DNA of 41,925 bases, taken from assembly GCA_902568975.1 (NCBI GenBank), contig CACFSO010000008.1:1-41925 (forward strand), written 5' to 3'. Position 1 is the first letter of the stretch. Each line of letters begins with the position of its first letter. The notes under the pieces were generated by a model. It was given only the letters and a program-made list of their open reading frames with translations. It was not told the origin of the DNA and did not search any database. Made by a program: the position numbers and the translations under genes. Of this stretch, positions 7,863 through 13,918 are shown in pieces. The DNA is from an uncultured Pelagibacteraceae bacterium (GTDB taxonomy: Bacteria; Pseudomonadota; Alphaproteobacteria; Pelagibacterales; Pelagibacteraceae).

Positions 7863-8978
7863 CTAATTCTTTTTAGTAGGAATTTCCTCTTTTGATTCTA
7901 CTTTTTCTTTTTCTATAGGATTTCCTTCAATTTTTTTTGAAATTACACCGGCTTTTTCTCTTATCGCCATTTCAATTTCTGCTGCAGCTTTTGGATTTTG
8001 TTCAAGATAAACTTTAGCGTTTTCTCTGCCTTGGCCTATCTTTTCTCCTTTATATGCATACCAAGCTCCAGATTTTTCAACTATATCTGCCTTTGATCCT
8101 AGATCAATTAGCTCTCCAGATTTACTAATTCCTTTTCCATACATTAAATCGAACTCAACCACTTTGAATGGAGGTGATACTTTATTTTTAACAACTTTAA
8201 CCCTTGTCGCATTTCCAATAATTGCATCTTTTTCTTTAATAGCTCCAATTCTTCTTATATCCATTCTAACAGATGAATAGAATTTAAGTGCATTACCACC
8301 TGATGTAGTTTCCGGACTTCCAAACATAACTCCAATTTTCATTCTTATTTGGTTGATGAAAATAACCATTGTGTTTGTTCGTGAAATTGAACTAGTTAAT
8401 TTTCTTAAAGCTTGACTCATTAGTCTTGACTGAAGGCCTACATGATGGTCTCCCATTTCACCTTCTATTTCAGCTCTTGGCGTTAAAGCAGCCACTGAGT
8501 CAACAACTAGTACTGAAACTGATCCTGATTTAATTAGTGTGTCTGCAATCTCTAAAGCTTGTTCGCCTGTATCTGGTTGAGAAATTAACAGTTCCTCAGT
8601 ATCAACCCCTAATTTTTTTGCATAAACTGGATCTAGTGCATGTTCTGCATCTATAAATCCACAAATTCCACCTGTTTTTTGTGCTTCGGCAAGTACTTGA
8701 AGTGCAAGCGTTGTTTTTCCAGATGATTCAGGTCCATAAATTTCAATAATTCTGCCTTTTGGCAAACCACCTATTCCAAGAGCAAGGTCTAAACTCAAAG
8801 ATCCTGTTGAAATAGACTCAACATCCATAGCTTTTTGTTGACCAAGTTTCATTACAGAGCCTTTTCCAAAATTATCTGTAATTTGGCTTATTGCTGCCTC
8901 TAGAGCCTTATTTTTTTCTTTATTTTCCAATTCTTGGTTTTTAGTAGATTTAACTACTTTTAGGTTATTTTTAGTCAT
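7863..8978 (-). CDS. recA: Recombinase RecA
   Basis: ATP-dependent strand exchange protein and SOS co-protease. The 371-residue sequence has Walker [10 protein letters not shown] at 82-90, the [15 protein letters not shown]alker B region, the L1/L2 DNA-binding loop segments (including [21 protein letters not shown], read here in pieces) and a charged C-terminal tail. A near-consensus LexA-type box and a plausible promoter lie upstream, so it is probably damage-inducible. A strong terminator follows it, making it monocistronic. The start ATG has only a weak GAG-type ribosome binding site (AAAGAGAT). Confidence 0.99.
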
Positions 8979-9024
8979 AATTTATCTCTTTTTTTTGTTT
9001 TTTTAACATTCGAATCATGTTTTA

Positions 9025-9052
9025 AATGTACACATTTTGTTCTCATTGGCAA
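9025..9052 (-). promoter_or_regulatory. Predicted recA promoter
   Basis: On the minus strand, TTGCCA (complement of 9047-9052) and TACATT (complement of 9025-9030) are 16 bases apart. They would start transcription about 60 bases before the recA ATG. The predicted SOS box sits in the spacer and overlaps the -10, a position where a repressor would block RNA polymerase. Confidence 0.5.
9026..9045 (-). promoter_or_regulatory. Predicted SOS (LexA-type) operator of recA
   Basis: The minus strand reads TGAGAACAAAATGTGTACAT. The core GAAC-N7-GTAC (9028-9042) differs by one base from the alphaproteobacterial LexA site GAAC-N7-GAAC (the same as GTTC-N7-GTTC). The 20-base segment matches the operator before umuD (12243-12262) at 17 of 20 positions, a strong internal control. 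The family consensus is established knowledge; its use here is inferred from the match and its position. Confidence 0.75.
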
Positions 9053-9084
9053 CAATAATTTTAAATTAGTTAAAATTTAGCAAT

Positions 9085-10380
9085 TTACTTGAGTTTTAAA
9101 TAGTTACTATTCAAAAGCCCTATTGATTTTAGAAGATTATATTGAGCCAACAAGTAATTCCTTTCAGAATTTGATAAAGAAATTCTTGCATCAAGCAATG
9201 ATTTATTTGATTGAATTACATCTAATGTGCTTCTCCCAGATCCTCTTTCATATTCAGCACTAATTCCTTCATTGGCTATTTTGGCAGCTTTAACTTGAGC
9301 TTCGACTGAATCTAATAAACTTTTTGAAGCTTCCAAATTCGACCAGCTAGTCGCGATTTTCATTTCATTAGTTTTTATTTCATTATCTAATAATAATCTT
9401 TTTCTATTTTTTAAATTTTGATTTTTATTTATAGTTGCTCGATTTTTGCCACCCGTATAAAATGGCCAACTTATTGTTGCCTTTAAAATATCCTTCTCTC
9501 TCTCTTTATTTGTAGAACTTAAATCATTAGTGTAAGATCTTTCTAAAGATAATGTAGCAGTAGGAGATAAATCTGATTTTGCAATCTCAACGTCTTTTTC
9601 TGATTGATCAAATTCTAATTTAGCAATAATTAAATCTGGATTATTGAGTTTAGATAAGTCTATTGCACTATTTACACTCTTGGGAATTTCAACTATTGCT
9701 TTTCTTGATTTATTTAAATTTTCAGTCCTAAATAAAGATCCAATTATATTTTCATAATTAAGTTTACTTGTCAAAAGTTCATTTTGTGACTCAATAAATT
9801 GCGCTCTTGCGCCAGCTAGCGAAGATTCTGATTGGGCTAAATCTGATATAGTTATTTGACCCCTATCTAATCTAACTTTATCAGTTTCCACTTGTCTTTC
9901 TAAAAGCTTGACATTTTTATCATTGAGTAATTTTTTTTCATTAGAAAGAATTAAACCAGTATAAGCCTCGATAGCTTTATATAAAATAATTTGTTCTTTT
10001 TTTAATAATTTTGCTTTAGCTAAATCTAATCCTATTTGATTTTTTTCTAAATCTGCACTTCTTCCTCGATCAATTAAAGTATGTTCAAGTTTTATCGAAG
10101 CTGTTAAAGGATCAACATCTGTAATTGTCGAGTCTTCCCCTCCTCTATCAGTAAGCTTATTTGTATCTTCTTTACTTTTAGAACCTATAATTGTAAAAGA
10201 AGGCAGATAACTACTTTTAGATATATTAATATCTTCATTAGAAACATTTATATTTTCTCTTTCAGCATTTAATTCAGTATTATTTTTATAGGTTTCTTTT
10301 AAAGCATCACTTAAAGTTAATGCATTAACATTTATTGAGAAAAATAAAATTAATAATAATGTTAAAAATATTTTTTTCAT
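9085..10380 (-). CDS. tolC: TolC-family outer membrane efflux protein
   Basis: Outer membrane channel of tripartite efflux or type I secretion systems. The 431-residue sequence begins with a signal peptide (MKKIFLTLLLILFFSINVNA, predicted cleavage after residue 20). Two Gln/Asn/Ser-rich alpha-helical repeats follow, typical of outer membrane efflux proteins: LSDALKETYKNNTELNAERE opens the first, and SYLPSFTI and SDLSPTATLSLERSY are the paired strand segments. No partner pump or adaptor gene is adjacent, so it may serve a pump encoded elsewhere. Its ATG overlaps the kinase stop as ATGA, so it is translationally coupled to the gene upstream. Confidence 0.92.
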   Translation of the reverse strand: MKKIFLTLLLILFFSINVNALTLSDALKETYKNNTELNAERENINVSNEDINISKSSYLPSFTIIGSKSKEDTNKLTDRGGEDSTITDVDPLTASIKLEHTLIDRGRSADLEKNQIGLDLAKAKLLKKEQIILYKAIEAYTGLILSNEKKLLNDKNVKLLERQVETDKVRLDRGQITISDLAQSESSLAGARAQFIESQNELLTSKLNYENIIGSLFRTENLNKSRKAIVEIPKSVNSAIDLSKLNNPDLIIAKLEFDQSEKDVEIAKSDLSPTATLSLERSYTNDLSSTNKEREKDILKATISWPFYTGGKNRATINKNQNLKNRKRLLLDNEIKTNEMKIATSWSNLEASKSLLDSVEAQVKAAKIANEGISAEYERGSGRSTLDVIQSNKSLLDARISLSNSERNYLLAQYNLLKSIGLLNSNYLKLK

Positions 10381-11303
10381 TTTCTTTTATATACAATAGA
10401 TTTTATTTGATGTTTGCTATCCAAATTTATTATTATTGAAGCATAGCTTGTTGTATGCTTAAACATATTTTGCGTTACTCTTTGATATGTTTGCATAAAG
10501 TTAATTACATCCTTTTTGCTCATTATTTTGTTATTACTTGATCTTTTATTTTTTAACCAGAGTTTTTTTTCTTGTTTTATTCGCCATTGCTGAAGAAGCC
10601 TAAAGTTTATAGCTTTTAGATAAAGCAAACAATTTAGATTATCATATAATGTCTTATATTTTGATTTAAGATTTTTATTAACAAATTTACGCCAGACTAA
10701 TTTCTTATCATTTTTTGATTCTAAAGAATTAACTGATTTTTTTAGAGTGTTGTTTTTTTCTGGTTTTGCACCTACACACCAACCTTCAAAAATTATAATA
10801 TCTGGTTTTTTTCTAACTAAGTACCAAGATTTTTTTTTATGTCTATCGTCAATAGCTTTATTAAATTTAGGAAGTTTTAATTCTCTAAAGTTTTTGCTTT
10901 TTAATTTTTTAAAAAAATCCAACATGATTTTTGTATCATGAGTTCCTGGCACTCCTCTTGTCATTAAGAAAGGATGAATTTTTTTTGATAATGATAATCT
11001 TTCATTTCTAGTTTTATAAAAATCATCAATTGAAATTTTAAAAACTTTTAATTTGAAATATTTCTTTAGGATAATTGTGATAATAGAACTTATAGTAGTT
11101 TTGCCTGTTCCTTGGCCGCCACCTAAGCCTACAAAATATGGTTTTTTTTTATTTGCTTTACTTGCTATCCAGAAACTTATTGGGATTAAAAAAGATTTAA
11201 TCATCTTTTCTTTGTTTTTAAATTTTTCTTTTGGTGTTTCTTGTGATTTTATAAATTTTAAACAATCTTTGTTAACTTTTCTGTAACACTCAAGAATTGT
11301 CAT
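10377..11303 (-). CDS. P-loop kinase, D-glycerate 3-kinase (plant GLYK-type) family
   Basis: The 308-residue protein has a Walker A motif GGGQGTGKTT at 61-70, then SIDDFYKTRNERL, TRGVPGTHD and IIFEGWCVGAKP. This order is characteristic of plant/fungal-type D-glycerate 3-kinase and related uridine-kinase-like proteins. The expected reaction is ATP + D-glycerate to 3-phosphoglycerate, which would route glyoxylate or serine carbon to glycolysis. The family match is good, but the substrate is inferred. It lies 10 bases after the second GFA gene and overlaps the TolC gene by four bases. The C-terminal third is very Lys-rich. Confidence 0.78.
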   Translation of the reverse strand: MTILECYRKVNKDCLKFIKSQETPKEKFKNKEKMIKSFLIPISFWIASKANKKKPYFVGLGGGQGTGKTTISSIITIILKKYFKLKVFKISIDDFYKTRNERLSLSKKIHPFLMTRGVPGTHDTKIMLDFFKKLKSKNFRELKLPKFNKAIDDRHKKKSWYLVRKKPDIIIFEGWCVGAKPEKNNTLKKSVNSLESKNDKKLVWRKFVNKNLKSKYKTLYDNLNCLLYLKAINFRLLQQWRIKQEKKLWLKNKRSSNNKIMSKKDVINFMQTYQRVTQNMFKHTTSYASIIINLDSKHQIKSIVYKRK

Positions 11304-11313
11304 TATTTAAAAA

Positions 11314-11682
11314 CTATTTTTTTTGATCTAAAGGATGGTTCTCTCCATCATTTACTGGAACATCTTTTATTTCAAATGGTTTAATACTTTCAATGCAAGC
11401 AATATTTACACCATAGATTTTTGGATTACTTCTTGGTCTATTGTGAGTATGAATGCCACAAACTTTACAAAAATAATGTTGAGCAGTTTTTGTTTTAAAT
11501 TGATAAAGTGTCAAAAGCTCTTCTCCTTTAGTTAATTTAAAATCATCTGGTCCAATAACTCCTATAATGTATCCTTTTCTTTTGCAGATAGAACAATTGC
11601 AACGCATAATCTTTTGAAATCCATTTTCAGGAACATTAACTTCTGCCTCTATACCCCCGCAATGACATGTTAGTTTTTTCAT
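11314..11682 (-). CDS. GFA (glutathione-dependent formaldehyde-activating)-family protein, second copy
   Basis: A small 122-residue zinc-binding protein of the GFA/CENP-V fold. It has the three cysteine clusters of the family: C6-C8, C28-C30-C33 and C72-C75. Family members include the glutathione-dependent formaldehyde-activating enzyme Gfa, but many have unknown substrates. It begins on the base after the TAA of the first GFA gene and in the same frame. A strong ribosome binding site (GGGAGG) lies inside the end of that gene, eight to nine bases upstream, so it is independently translated. It is followed by the glycerate-kinase-like gene. Confidence 0.85.
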   Translation of the reverse strand: MKKLTCHCGGIEAEVNVPENGFQKIMRCNCSICKRKGYIIGVIGPDDFKLTKGEELLTLYQFKTKTAQHYFCKVCGIHTHNRPRSNPKIYGVNIACIESIKPFEIKDVPVNDGENHPLDQKK

Positions 11683-12093
11683 TTACTTTCCTCCCTTGGG
11701 ATAACGTTTAAATTTTGGCATATATTGTTCAAGTTTATAATAGTCTAACTTCCCTTTTACAAATATATTCATTGTTGTTTTAAGCTTAAAAGGTCTATTA
11801 AACATTCCTGCAGAAATATGAATATCTTTCTGTCCAATTGATTTAAAAAATATACTTGCTCCACATTTTTTGCAAAATCCTCTTTTTCCTTTTTTTGATG
11901 ATTGAAACCATTTTAATGTTCTTTTTTTTATAAATTTAATATTTTGTTCTTCAACAGCTGTATAAGCTGCATGATGACCATGTGTTTTCATGCATTGAAT
12001 GCAATGACAGTTGTGCACATCTCTATGATATCCTTTGGTCTTTAATTCTATTCCGCCACATAAACAACTCGCTTTAAGAGATAGTTTTTTCAT
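11683..12093 (-). CDS. GFA-family zinc-binding protein, first copy
   Basis: A GFA-fold protein with cysteine clusters C10-C12, C29-C31-C34 and C74-C77 (numbered from the start chosen here). I choose ATG 12093 because it gives MKKLSLKASCLCGG, aligned with MKKLTCHCGG of the next gene. ATG 12102 is equally possible, and an upstream in-frame start at 12144 is less likely. The start codons lie in the loop of an 11-bp inverted repeat (12077-12120). It is the first gene of the GFA-GFA-kinase-TolC set and diverges from umuD. The substrate is unknown; a thiol adduct such as a glutathione conjugate is the usual guess for the fold. Confidence 0.83.
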   Translation of the reverse strand: MKKLSLKASCLCGGIELKTKGYHRDVHNCHCIQCMKTHGHHAAYTAVEEQNIKFIKKRTLKWFQSSKKGKRGFCKKCGASIFFKSIGQKDIHISAGMFNRPFKLKTTMNIFVKGKLDYYKLEQYMPKFKRYPKGGK

Positions 12094-12120
12094 TTTCAAC
12101 ATGGGTTCTAAACTATCTCT
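12077..12120 (-). repeat. 11-bp inverted repeat around the GFA start codons
   Basis: AGAGATAGTTT (12077-12087) and AAACTATCTCT (12110-12120) are perfect inverted copies separated by 22 bases. In the GFA mRNA they could form a hairpin that presents both candidate ATG codons (12102 and 12093) in its loop. An 11-bp AT-rich repeat can occur by chance in a window of this size, so only its placement is notable. Confidence 0.45.
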
Positions 12121-12167
12121 GGTTAAAGTTATCCACAAGAGCACAAAATCTGGTTTGAATGTTCACG

Positions 12168-12189
12168 TTTTGATTCACTTTTGATTCAC
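12168..12189. repeat. Tandem 11-bp direct repeat in the GFA/umuD intergenic region
   Basis: TTTTGATTCAC occurs twice with no spacer (12168-12178 and 12179-12189). Read on the minus strand, GTGAA recurs at 11- and 12-base intervals, with a third degenerate copy ending near 12161. Direct repeats with one-turn spacing are typical of winged-helix response-regulator sites such as PhoB/OmpR boxes. The regulator, if any, is unknown. Confidence 0.5.
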
Positions 12190-12213
12190 TTCCAGACTCA
12201 AAATACAACCTGA

Positions 12214-12242
12214 TTGACACTATTGAATAACTTGTATATTAA
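12214..12242 (+). promoter_or_regulatory. umuDC promoter
   Basis: TTGACA (12214-12219) is followed by TATATT (12235-12240, spacer 15) or TATTAA (12237-12242, spacer 17). The first element is a full -35 match. Transcription would start at about 12247, inside the SOS box, leaving a short leader before ATG 12265. Confidence 0.65.
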
Positions 12243-12262
12243 TGAGAACAAAATAAGAACAT
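12243..12262 (+). promoter_or_regulatory. Predicted SOS (LexA-type) operator of umuDC
   Basis: The sequence TGAGAACAAAATAAGAACAT contains a perfect GAAC-N7-GAAC (12246-12260), the alphaproteobacterial LexA recognition pattern. It overlaps the predicted transcription start and ends just before the umuD ATG. A 17 of 20 match stands before recA. Confidence 0.85.
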
Positions 12263-12264
12263 TT

Positions 12265-12660
12265 ATGAAGATAGCTATTCCTTATTATTTACACAAGGCT
12301 GGTGCTGGATTTCCTTCTCCAGCAACAGATTATATCGAGGAAGATATTGATCTAAATATTCATTTAATAAAAAATGTTCCAGCCACATTTATTATCAGAG
12401 TTCAAGGCAAATCAATGTCAGATGTTGGTATTCATGATGGTGACTTATTAGTTGTCGATAAAAGTTTAAAACCTAAAAATTTTTCAACTGTTATTGCGAA
12501 TGTGCATGATGAATTAGTTGTTAAAAATCTTGTTATAGAAAAAAACAAACAATTTTTAACTTCAGGATCTAAAAAATTTGAAGATCGGGTTTTAATTGAT
12601 GAGGAAGCCGATATTTTTATTTGGGGAGTTGTCACTTATGTCATCCATTCAGTATACTAA
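12265..12660 (+). CDS. umuD: UmuD, self-cleaving subunit of DNA polymerase V
   Basis: S24 peptidase-like protein that, after RecA-stimulated self-cleavage, forms UmuD' and activates UmuC for translesion synthesis. The 131-residue product has the cleavage region AGAGFPSPATDY (predicted cut between A14 and G15), nucleophile S50 in QGKSMSDVGIHDGD and general base K87 in DELVVKN. The Ser-to-Lys distance (37) and cut-to-Ser distance (36) equal those of E. coli UmuD. I choose ATG 12265: an upstream TTG at 12214 would extend the reading frame but is the -35 hexamer of the promoter. It overlaps umuC by 23 bases. Confidence 0.95.
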   Translation: MKIAIPYYLHKAGAGFPSPATDYIEEDIDLNIHLIKNVPATFIIRVQGKSMSDVGIHDGDLLVVDKSLKPKNFSTVIANVHDELVVKNLVIEKNKQFLTSGSKKFEDRVLIDEEADIFIWGVVTYVIHSVY

Positions 12661-13918
12661 AAAAATAGCTCTTATTGATTGTAATGCCTTTTATGTATCT
12701 TGTGAAAGACTATTTAACCCCAAAATAAGAAAAAAACCCGTTGTTGTTCTATCTAATAATGATGGTTGTATTATTTCAAGATCCAATGAAGCAAAATCTT
12801 TAGGAATTAAAATGGGAGAACCTTACTTTAAAGCAAAAGAAATTATTGTTAAAAATAAAGTTCAAGTCTTTTCATCAAATTATTCTTTATATGGAGATAT
12901 ATCAAGAAGAGTAATGAGAACATTAAAACGTTTTAATTCAGATATAGAAGTTTATTCAATTGATGAAGCATTTTTAGATTTAAGTAATTTTTCTGATGAG
13001 GAAGTTGAAAATGTGGGTCACGAAATTAGGAGTGTTGTTTTACAATGGACAGGTATCCCGACTAGTATTGGAATTGCAAAAACTAAAACATTAAGTAAAG
13101 TAGCAAACCATATTGCTAAAAAGAAAAAATCTGGTGTAACTAGTCTAATAGGAATTGAAAACATTGATCCAATACTAGAAAAAGTAGAAATCAATGATGT
13201 CTGGGGTGTTGGGAGACAATTAACTAAATTTTTTCATAAAAATGGAATTTATAATGCAAGACAATTAAAAAATAAATCTAATACGTGGATTAAAAAAAAT
13301 TCTAATGTTTTAAGTTCCAGAACAGCAATGGAGCTTAAAGGTATTTCTTGCATTGATCTAGAAACGACAAGTTCTAAAAGAAAAAGCTGCGTGGTCTCAA
13401 GGTCATTTGGGAAAAGAGTAGAGAATTTTCAAGAATTAAAAGAAGCTATTGCAAATTATTGTTTAAATGCTTCAGAAAAAATTAGATCGGAGTCATTAGT
13501 TGCAAAATCAATAACTATTTTTATTAGAACAAGTCCTTTTCAAAATCAATATGGATATTATTCAAATTCAAAAACTATTGATTTTCCAATAGCAACTAAT
13601 AATAGTATAGAAGTAGTCAAAGCTGCTATTTTAATTTTAGAAAATATTTTTAAAAATGGATACAGATATCAAAAAGCAGGGGTATTATTATCTAATCTAT
13701 CTGATGTAAACGATGCAAAAAATTTATTTTCTTCCGAAAGAGATGAAAAAATAAATAGTTTAATGAGATCAATTGATAATACAAATTATAGGTATGGTAG
13801 AGCAACTTTAAGCTTGGCTAGCGCAGGTGTTCATAAAAAATGGAACACTAAAAAACAATACTTTTCAAAGATAGATACTGCCGATTTTTATTGCCTACCC
13901 TCTATAAAAGCCCATTAG
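12638..13918 (+). CDS. umuC: UmuC, catalytic subunit of DNA polymerase V (Y-family)
   Basis: Error-prone translesion polymerase. From ATG 12638 it has 426 residues, close to E. coli UmuC. Catalytic acidic residues are D14 (KIALIDCNAFYVSCE) and D109-E110 (VYSIDEAFLDLS). The NNDGCIISRSNEAKSLGIKMGEP segment (read in two parts) and the later helix-hairpin-helix VWGVGRQL are family-typical. A longer reading frame from 12596 would overlap umuD further and adds non-family sequence, so it is rejected. The gene lies in the SOS-controlled umuDC operon. The C-terminal part has a NLFS stretch that may be a clamp-binding peptide. Confidence 0.97.
   Translation: MSSIQYTKKIALIDCNAFYVSCERLFNPKIRKKPVVVLSNNDGCIISRSNEAKSLGIKMGEPYFKAKEIIVKNKVQVFSSNYSLYGDISRRVMRTLKRFNSDIEVYSIDEAFLDLSNFSDEEVENVGHEIRSVVLQWTGIPTSIGIAKTKTLSKVANHIAKKKKSGVTSLIGIENIDPILEKVEINDVWGVGRQLTKFFHKNGIYNARQLKNKSNTWIKKNSNVLSSRTAMELKGISCIDLETTSSKRKSCVVSRSFGKRVENFQELKEAIANYCLNASEKIRSESLVAKSITIFIRTSPFQNQYGYYSNSKTIDFPIATNNSIEVVKAAILILENIFKNGYRYQKAGVLLSNLSDVNDAKNLFSSERDEKINSLMRSIDNTNYRYGRATLSLASAGVHKKWNTKKQYFSKIDTADFYCLPSIKAH

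Follow-up and report, generated by a model that had tools for sequence, protein, structure and literature searches.

Predicted LexA operators before recA and umuDC suggest a very small SOS regulon in a Pelagibacteraceae genome

The stretch of DNA analyzed here, 41,925 nucleotides in length and called the window throughout, is contig 8 of a 31-contig draft genome of an uncultured Pelagibacteraceae bacterium (996,534 bases, 77% complete). Judged by recA, it is closest among named relatives to uncultured Pelagibacteraceae and to a Candidatus Pelagibacter ubique strain, which places it in SAR11. The window carries recA and the umuDC gene pair, each preceded by a 20-base box, and sequence comparison makes it very likely that the two belong, as predicted LexA operators, to a small SOS regulon of the kind usual in alphaproteobacteria. 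The features concerned are the following.

7863 to 8978, minus strand: recA (PF00154, 473 bits; TIGR02012, 556.7 bits, above its cut-off)
9026 to 9045, minus strand: predicted LexA operator of recA, TGAGAACAAAATGTGTACAT (from sequence; core in 59/59 readable SAR11 recA upstreams)
9025 to 9052, minus strand: promoter-like TTGCCA-N16-TACATT before recA (consensus scan only)
12214 to 12242, plus strand: promoter-like pair of umuD, TTGACA (12214-12219) and TATATT/TATTAA (12235-12242), read from the sequence
12243 to 12262, plus strand: predicted LexA operator of umuDC, TGAGAACAAAATAAGAACAT (core in 60/60 readable SAR11 umuD upstreams)
12265 to 12660, plus strand: umuD, 131 amino acids, S24 peptidase domain only (PF00717, 75.7 bits; NF007621, 142.5 bits)
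12638 to 13918, plus strand: umuC, Y-family polymerase (PF00817, PF11799, PF13438)

Conserved boxes before recA and umuDC

The original prediction placed the two boxes at 9045-9026 of the minus strand and 12243-12262 of the plus strand with 17 of 20 positions identical, and both the places and the count proved correct. The core of the umuD box is an exact GAAC-N7-GAAC (12246-12260), and that of the recA box is GAAC-N7-GTAC (9028-9042, minus strand). The available part of PMC7987155 gives GTTC-N7-GTTC as the LexA motif of alphaproteobacteria. Read on the other strand this is GAAC-N7-GAAC, and the half-sites and their spacing are the same.

Comparison of the upstream regions across relatives, as the original prediction had suggested, revealed that both boxes are conserved. 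The loci compared were the best-scoring ones together with a chosen, more diverged set, a subset of the genomes; in the genus, 79 of the 101 genomes sampled yielded recA, and the same number yielded umuC. The recA box was present in 30/30 upstreams, in all 8 that were readable among 20 further regions, and in 21/21 named SAR11 loci, or 59/59 altogether, of which 58 are distinct. Its second half-site is GTAC in every one of them, while in two boxes GTAGTAC replaces TGTGTAC. Within the 150 bp upstream of recA the box is the top-conserved 17-mer, with a mean column identity of 0.994 versus an upstream mean of 0.761 across the 58 distinct sequences. The umuD box was likewise found in 60/60 SAR11 upstreams (29/29 readable of 30, 19/19 readable of 20, and 12/12). 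It is not singled out by the 17-mer measure, because the adjoining RNA block, described below, is more conserved still (0.997).

The original prediction had read the GTAC of the recA box as one mismatch to the GAAC-N7-GAAC spacing. This spacing is exact at umuD. The supposed mismatch at recA is not a defect. Among 59 recA upstreams of other alphaproteobacteria (Rhizobium, Mesorhizobium, Parvibaculum and others), GAAC-N7-GWAC lies within 400 bp before recA in 53 and no box was found in 6, whereas 0.7 loci would be expected from mononucleotide shuffles of these upstreams. Since 42 of the 59 carry the GTAC form, this half-site is the usual form in the class and not a sign of decay.

The positions of the boxes relative to the promoters can also be described. 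The recA operator overlies the spacer and most of the -10 element of the promoter-like TTGCCA-N16-TACATT. The match by itself is not evidence, because such sites are no commoner than in shuffles: the consensus scan of 8900-12700 returned 18 promoter-like sites, as against 21.8 expected. The pair before umuD is absent from the listing of that scan, and similar pairs occur in relatives. The umuD operator starts right behind the -10 element and ends two bases upstream of the ATG; in many relatives it abuts the ATG.

The products of the umuDC genes are well recognizable. UmuD passes NF007621 (142.5 bits versus a cut-off of 110) and aligns to Escherichia coli UmuD 8gmt with an E value of 5.5e-20. 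In 31 readable UmuD sequences, the cut site before GFPSPA and the GxSM motif are kept in all 31, and the Lys pattern in 29. The best NCBIfam model for UmuC is NF002955, whose cut-off of 431 bits it misses by 27 (404.3 bits); the gene was named for its matches to PF00817, PF11799 and PF13438 and for its place behind umuD. A PF00817 search of 10 genomes found UmuC as the sole Y-family polymerase in nine and none in the tenth.

As a separate observation, a conserved stretch before SAR11 recA, ATGATTCG, lies in the interval from the operator to the start of the gene, and neither the LexA box nor the start region explains it. It includes GATTC (9012-9016), an instance of GANTC, the CcrM methylation site.

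The lexA gene and the extent of the regulon

The original prediction inferred a real SOS regulon with error-prone repair, which is supported by the conserved boxes and by a repressor gene elsewhere in the genome. Neither of the two outcomes that it named as fatal, a genome lacking a repressor gene and boxes lost in relatives, was observed. Searching the genome for lexA gave a PF01726 match of 53.2 bits, above the cut-off (contig 3, 59567-59755, minus strand), in the following gene.

Contig 3, 59098 to 59755, minus strand: lexA (PF01726)

Upstream of it lie two boxes that face each other, AGAACTTTTGTAGAACA on the gene strand and AGAACAAATATCGTACA on the opposite strand, the latter extending up to the lexA start codon. 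Both were found in all 93 readable loci of 97, from 12 genera of the family (91 loci were read by script, and L046 and L317 by eye; L238, L254, L365 and L338 were unreadable). In the second box, the half-site on the inner side reads GTAC at 81 of the 93 loci and GTTT at 12. With 6 or 7 bases separating the two boxes, their centres are 21 or 22 bases apart, or about two helical turns. The lexA promoter of E. coli also has two adjacent operators about two helical turns apart; unlike those, the SAR11 boxes consist of direct-repeat half-sites and face each other.

The LexA protein itself is well preserved in the relatives: AAGTP, which is presumably the cleavage site, GDSM and AMLKR, which we take to be the Ser and Lys stretches, and SKSGIHRLI, presumably the DNA-reading segment, are kept in 30/30. 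The gene was detected in 75 of the 101 genomes sampled for the genus and, for the family, in 99 of 118; among genomes at least 90% complete, it is present in 45/45 of the family sample and 14/16 of the genus sample.

A further box, typically AGAACATTTATAGAACW or AGAACATATATAGAACA, lies between nrdA (NF006577, 1018.7 bits) and a divergent phosphohexomutase-like gene, whose model matches all fall below their cut-offs. This box was present in 30 of 31 loci, all within the genus, and its beginning lies 94 to 112 bases ahead of the start of nrdA. A TTGATT follows the box directly and, together with TATTAA 16 bases further along, may form the nrdA promoter. From its position the box might serve nrdA, the divergent gene or both, and an operator beside nrdA is probable. 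In the same intergenic region, conserved ACACAACATCTAGTTGT-like and TATATAGTATAT-like words lie between the LexA-type box and nrdA (about 2325-2380 of locus L017, minus strand); in our judgment they resemble NrdR boxes. The original prediction thus had recA and umuDC right as members, but its picture of the regulon was incomplete, the two lexA boxes and the one near nrdA having been missed.

A search of four genomes with the flanked pattern AGAACN7GWACA gave 26 matches, 17 of them intergenic (recA 4, umuD 4, lexA 8, nrdA 1). The other nine lie inside reading frames of at least 150 amino acids and were rejected as operators; judged from the translations, these frames include RelA/SpoT-like, dihydroorotase-like and NrdB-like ones. 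Also rejected were AGAACAATTTTAGAACA, which stands at the start of an XdhC-like frame (by reading) in three genomes, and AGAACTGCAATGGAACT, which recurs inside umuC among the matches listed. Rarer operator sites may exist beyond these matches. Among 2.9 million viral contigs, at least 120 stretches with the umuD box were found, a number judged compatible with chance.

The resulting list of targets is short. In alphaproteobacteria, uvrA is a usual LexA target. In SAR11, no box was found within 260 bp before uvrA at any of 17 loci (18 genomes were sampled, one being dropped as a match without a gene start), and uvrA was rejected as a target. The predicted SAR11 regulon resembles other alphaproteobacterial LexA regulons in the recA operator form and in a lexA gene that bears its own boxes, and differs from them in comprising recA, lexA, umuDC and probably nrdA, with uvrA left out. 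Because the conserved pattern stands before recA, lexA and umuDC and beside nrdA, the streamlined SAR11 bacteria have likely retained an SOS response of very small extent.

The SAR11_0636 RNA block beside umuD

At the gathering threshold, Rfam yields a single match in the window, a nearly invariant block that adjoins the umuD promoter and points away from umuD.

12121 to 12210, minus strand: SAR11_0636 small RNA (sRNA), divergent from umuD (Rfam RF01827, 98.9 bits; gathering score 67)
12222 to 12250, minus strand: predicted RNA promoter, with -35 TGTTCT (12250-12245), 17 bases, and -10 TTCAAT (12227-12222)

The RNA was described in strain HTCC1062, where it lies between SAR11_0636 and SAR11_0635, a gene whose annotation is that of an SOS-mediated repressor or S24-like peptidase (PMC2704228). 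About 640 marine metagenome representatives were reported there, with neighbours that are not strictly conserved; the authors thought it separately transcribed, and the accessible text of the paper gives no function and no SOS link. This was the only paper found under the name of this RNA in the open-licence literature. SAR11_0635 is most likely umuD, so that the published motif and the block in the window would share this neighbour; the LexA operator in the predicted promoter is a proposal of the present analysis. Neighbouring genes on the other side vary: HTCC1062 is reported with a SOUL heme-binding gene beside the RNA, and here the block is followed on its own strand by a GFA-family gene (PF04828, 11314-11682, minus strand), with a further open reading frame at 11683-12144 of the minus strand.

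The predicted -35 element of this RNA falls inside the umuD operator. Operator and block occur together in 45 distinct sequences, sampled beside umuD or recA, and in 37 of these the block starts at a distance of 32 to 34 bases from the operator. A hexamer that agrees with TATAAT in four or more of its six letters lies, on the RNA strand, 17 bases from the operator TGTTCT in 38 of the 45, with a mean of 4.24/6 versus 3.02 at the next-best spacing, and the bases in between have changed among the sequences. We infer that a fixed spacing with changed intervening bases has the look of a promoter whose -35 element is a LexA half-site. It is thus possible, and proposed here tentatively, that one LexA operator has two outputs, repressing umuDC and, through the -35 element of a back-to-back promoter, the SAR11_0636 RNA, which would be under LexA control because the operator coincides with that element.

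Several counts weaken this proposal. The distance between operator and block is a different one in 8/45 sequences, six of which form a clade with five more bases; 7/45 lack a match of at least 4/6 at spacing 17; and under a stricter test, with A at position 2 and T at position 6, spacing 17 is satisfied in 21/45 versus 25/45 at spacing 22. In the Rfam fold of the block, 93.8% of cells are paired, equal to shuffles, with two-sided change in 1/23 pairs. RNAalifold gave a partly different fold with two-sided change in 0/17 pairs, and covariation support for the fold does not exceed that of shuffles. For this reason the block could instead be a DNA element of the umuD promoter rather than an RNA, a reading that deserves serious consideration while falling short of an even chance. 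It is also favoured by a DnaA-box-like TTATCCACA (12129-12137) and three GANTC sites (12172, 12183 and 12195) in the block. On the other hand, Rfam retains the sRNA entry, a separate transcript was the view of the authors of PMC2704228, and a -10-like hexamer keeps a fixed spacing on the RNA strand in 38 of the 45 sequences. As plain observations, TTATCCACA is the sole exact copy of this word in the window, and the GANTC words cluster at 12172-12199.

If the two-output proposal is true, SAR11_0636 would be a DNA-damage-induced small RNA, and the regulon would consist of recA, lexA, umuDC and nrdA together with this RNA. The LexA link would give an orphan marine RNA a testable inducer.

Mechanism, alternatives and meaning

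Based on these positions, a simple mechanism can be drawn up. LexA would bind AGAAC-N7-GWACA at the recA, lexA and umuDC promoters, which is likely, and beside nrdA, which is probable. At umuD, where the operator spans the region from the -10 element to the start codon, bound LexA would occupy the start site and thereby block initiation, and the short messenger leader would consist of the operator. At recA, the repressor would cover the spacer and most of the -10 element, and at lexA one box would lie over the likely -10 element and the other would reach up to the start codon. RecA assembled on damaged DNA would promote the self-cleavage of LexA and thereby free the operators. Induction would then yield RecA, new LexA for the switch-off, NrdA for deoxynucleotides, and polymerase V, for which UmuD would be cut at the site before GFPSPA and then join UmuC. 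Binding, repression and induction at the predicted operators are inferred from the sequence, and the cleavage and UmuD-UmuC steps would follow by analogy with the known families.

Viewed within the window, the likeness of the two boxes could have been a chance match in AT-rich upstream DNA. The 17/20 identity alone is weak, because 9 of 465 pairs of upstream regions of open reading frames in the window reach at least 17 as well, some probably through shared DNA, and dinucleotide shuffles of the two 200-bp upstreams gave a best 20-mer match of at least 17 in 19 of 2000 cases. With at most one mismatch allowed, GAAC-N7-GAAC is found 19 times in the window versus 16.9 expected. The window alone is thus barely beyond chance, and the matter is decided by the relatives: the retention of the boxes at every readable recA and umuD locus, together with the top rank of the recA box in its upstream region, refutes the chance explanation, which we regard as very improbable. 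Still less credible is the idea that UmuD itself is the repressor, like UmuDAb in Acinetobacter. Besides this precedent, it could appeal to SAR11_0635, taken as umuD, being annotated as an SOS-mediated repressor in some databases according to the available text of PMC2704228. The protein encoded here, however, has 131 amino acids, a Pfam search finds its S24 peptidase domain and no DNA-binding domain, and a separate lexA gene is present; UmuD was rejected as a repressor on this basis.

A more limited alternative holds that recA, lexA and umuDC are the only LexA targets, the nrdA-side box serving another regulator or the divergent phosphohexomutase-like gene alone. The divergent intergenic position, the distance of 94 to 112 bases to the nrdA start, the one locus without a box and the last base of the box, often T and not A, are compatible with it. 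Its half-sites and spacing are nevertheless the same as those of the other boxes, and the available part of a transcriptome study of HTCC1062 infected by phage HTVC027P reports nrdA (3.12 to 8.87-fold) and nrdB (2.53 to 5.83-fold) up together with recA, lexA, umuD and umuC (PMC12753301). We therefore regard the exclusion of nrdA as unlikely, and retain a LexA regulon that probably includes it.

Other results count against such a regulon as a whole. The original prediction proposed a genome-wide search for GAAC-N7-GAAC; this was run, and no excess emerged, with 9 exact matches versus 11 for the reversed control. AGAACN7GWACA is found 6 to 8 times per genome versus 4 to 6 for its reversed control in the four genomes. 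Half-site counts cannot define the regulon, because neither the window nor the genome shows an excess; flanked patterns and gene-anchored conservation were used instead, and the sites are marked by location and conservation rather than by number. One of the 31 nrdA upstreams (L289) is without the box, one half-site being missing. Two genomes of the genus sample that are at least 90% complete gave no LexA match. In this assembly, the lexA gene of the genome leaves its frame within the peptidase domain, where nine A stand in a row (L014, 1753-2256, minus strand, contig 3). Thus shortened, its frame of 167 amino acids scores 102.7 bits with TIGR00498, below the cut-off of 110.95, whereas LexA of the relative L046 scores 168.2 bits, above it. 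The frame is intact in 28/28 readable of 30 relatives, and the frameshift is likely an assembly slip or a recent strain mutation; if real, it would alter SOS control in the strain. No binding or induction data for LexA came to light in the open-licence literature. Finally, the available part of PMC12753301 reports all three excinuclease subunits, uvrABC, up alongside the SOS genes, yet uvrA bears no box. The boxes do not explain this rise, and infection by a phage does not provide a clean signal of damage.

The SOS response of SAR11 is itself already in print (PMC12753301). In the accessible text of that study, the rising genes are the box-bearing genes of SAR11, plus nrdB; it differs from the present analysis in that no operator or LexA binding is reported in that text, and in the rise of uvrABC. 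In the open-licence literature, no paper was found that describes the LexA operator of SAR11, the site beside nrdA or the possible link to the RNA, and these three are apparently new. The boxes offer a mechanism by which recA, lexA, umuDC and nrdAB could rise in phage infection. A conserved regulon of four promoters would reveal the damage genes for which control still pays in these organisms, namely the recombinase, the repressor, the nucleotide supply and the mutagenic polymerase.

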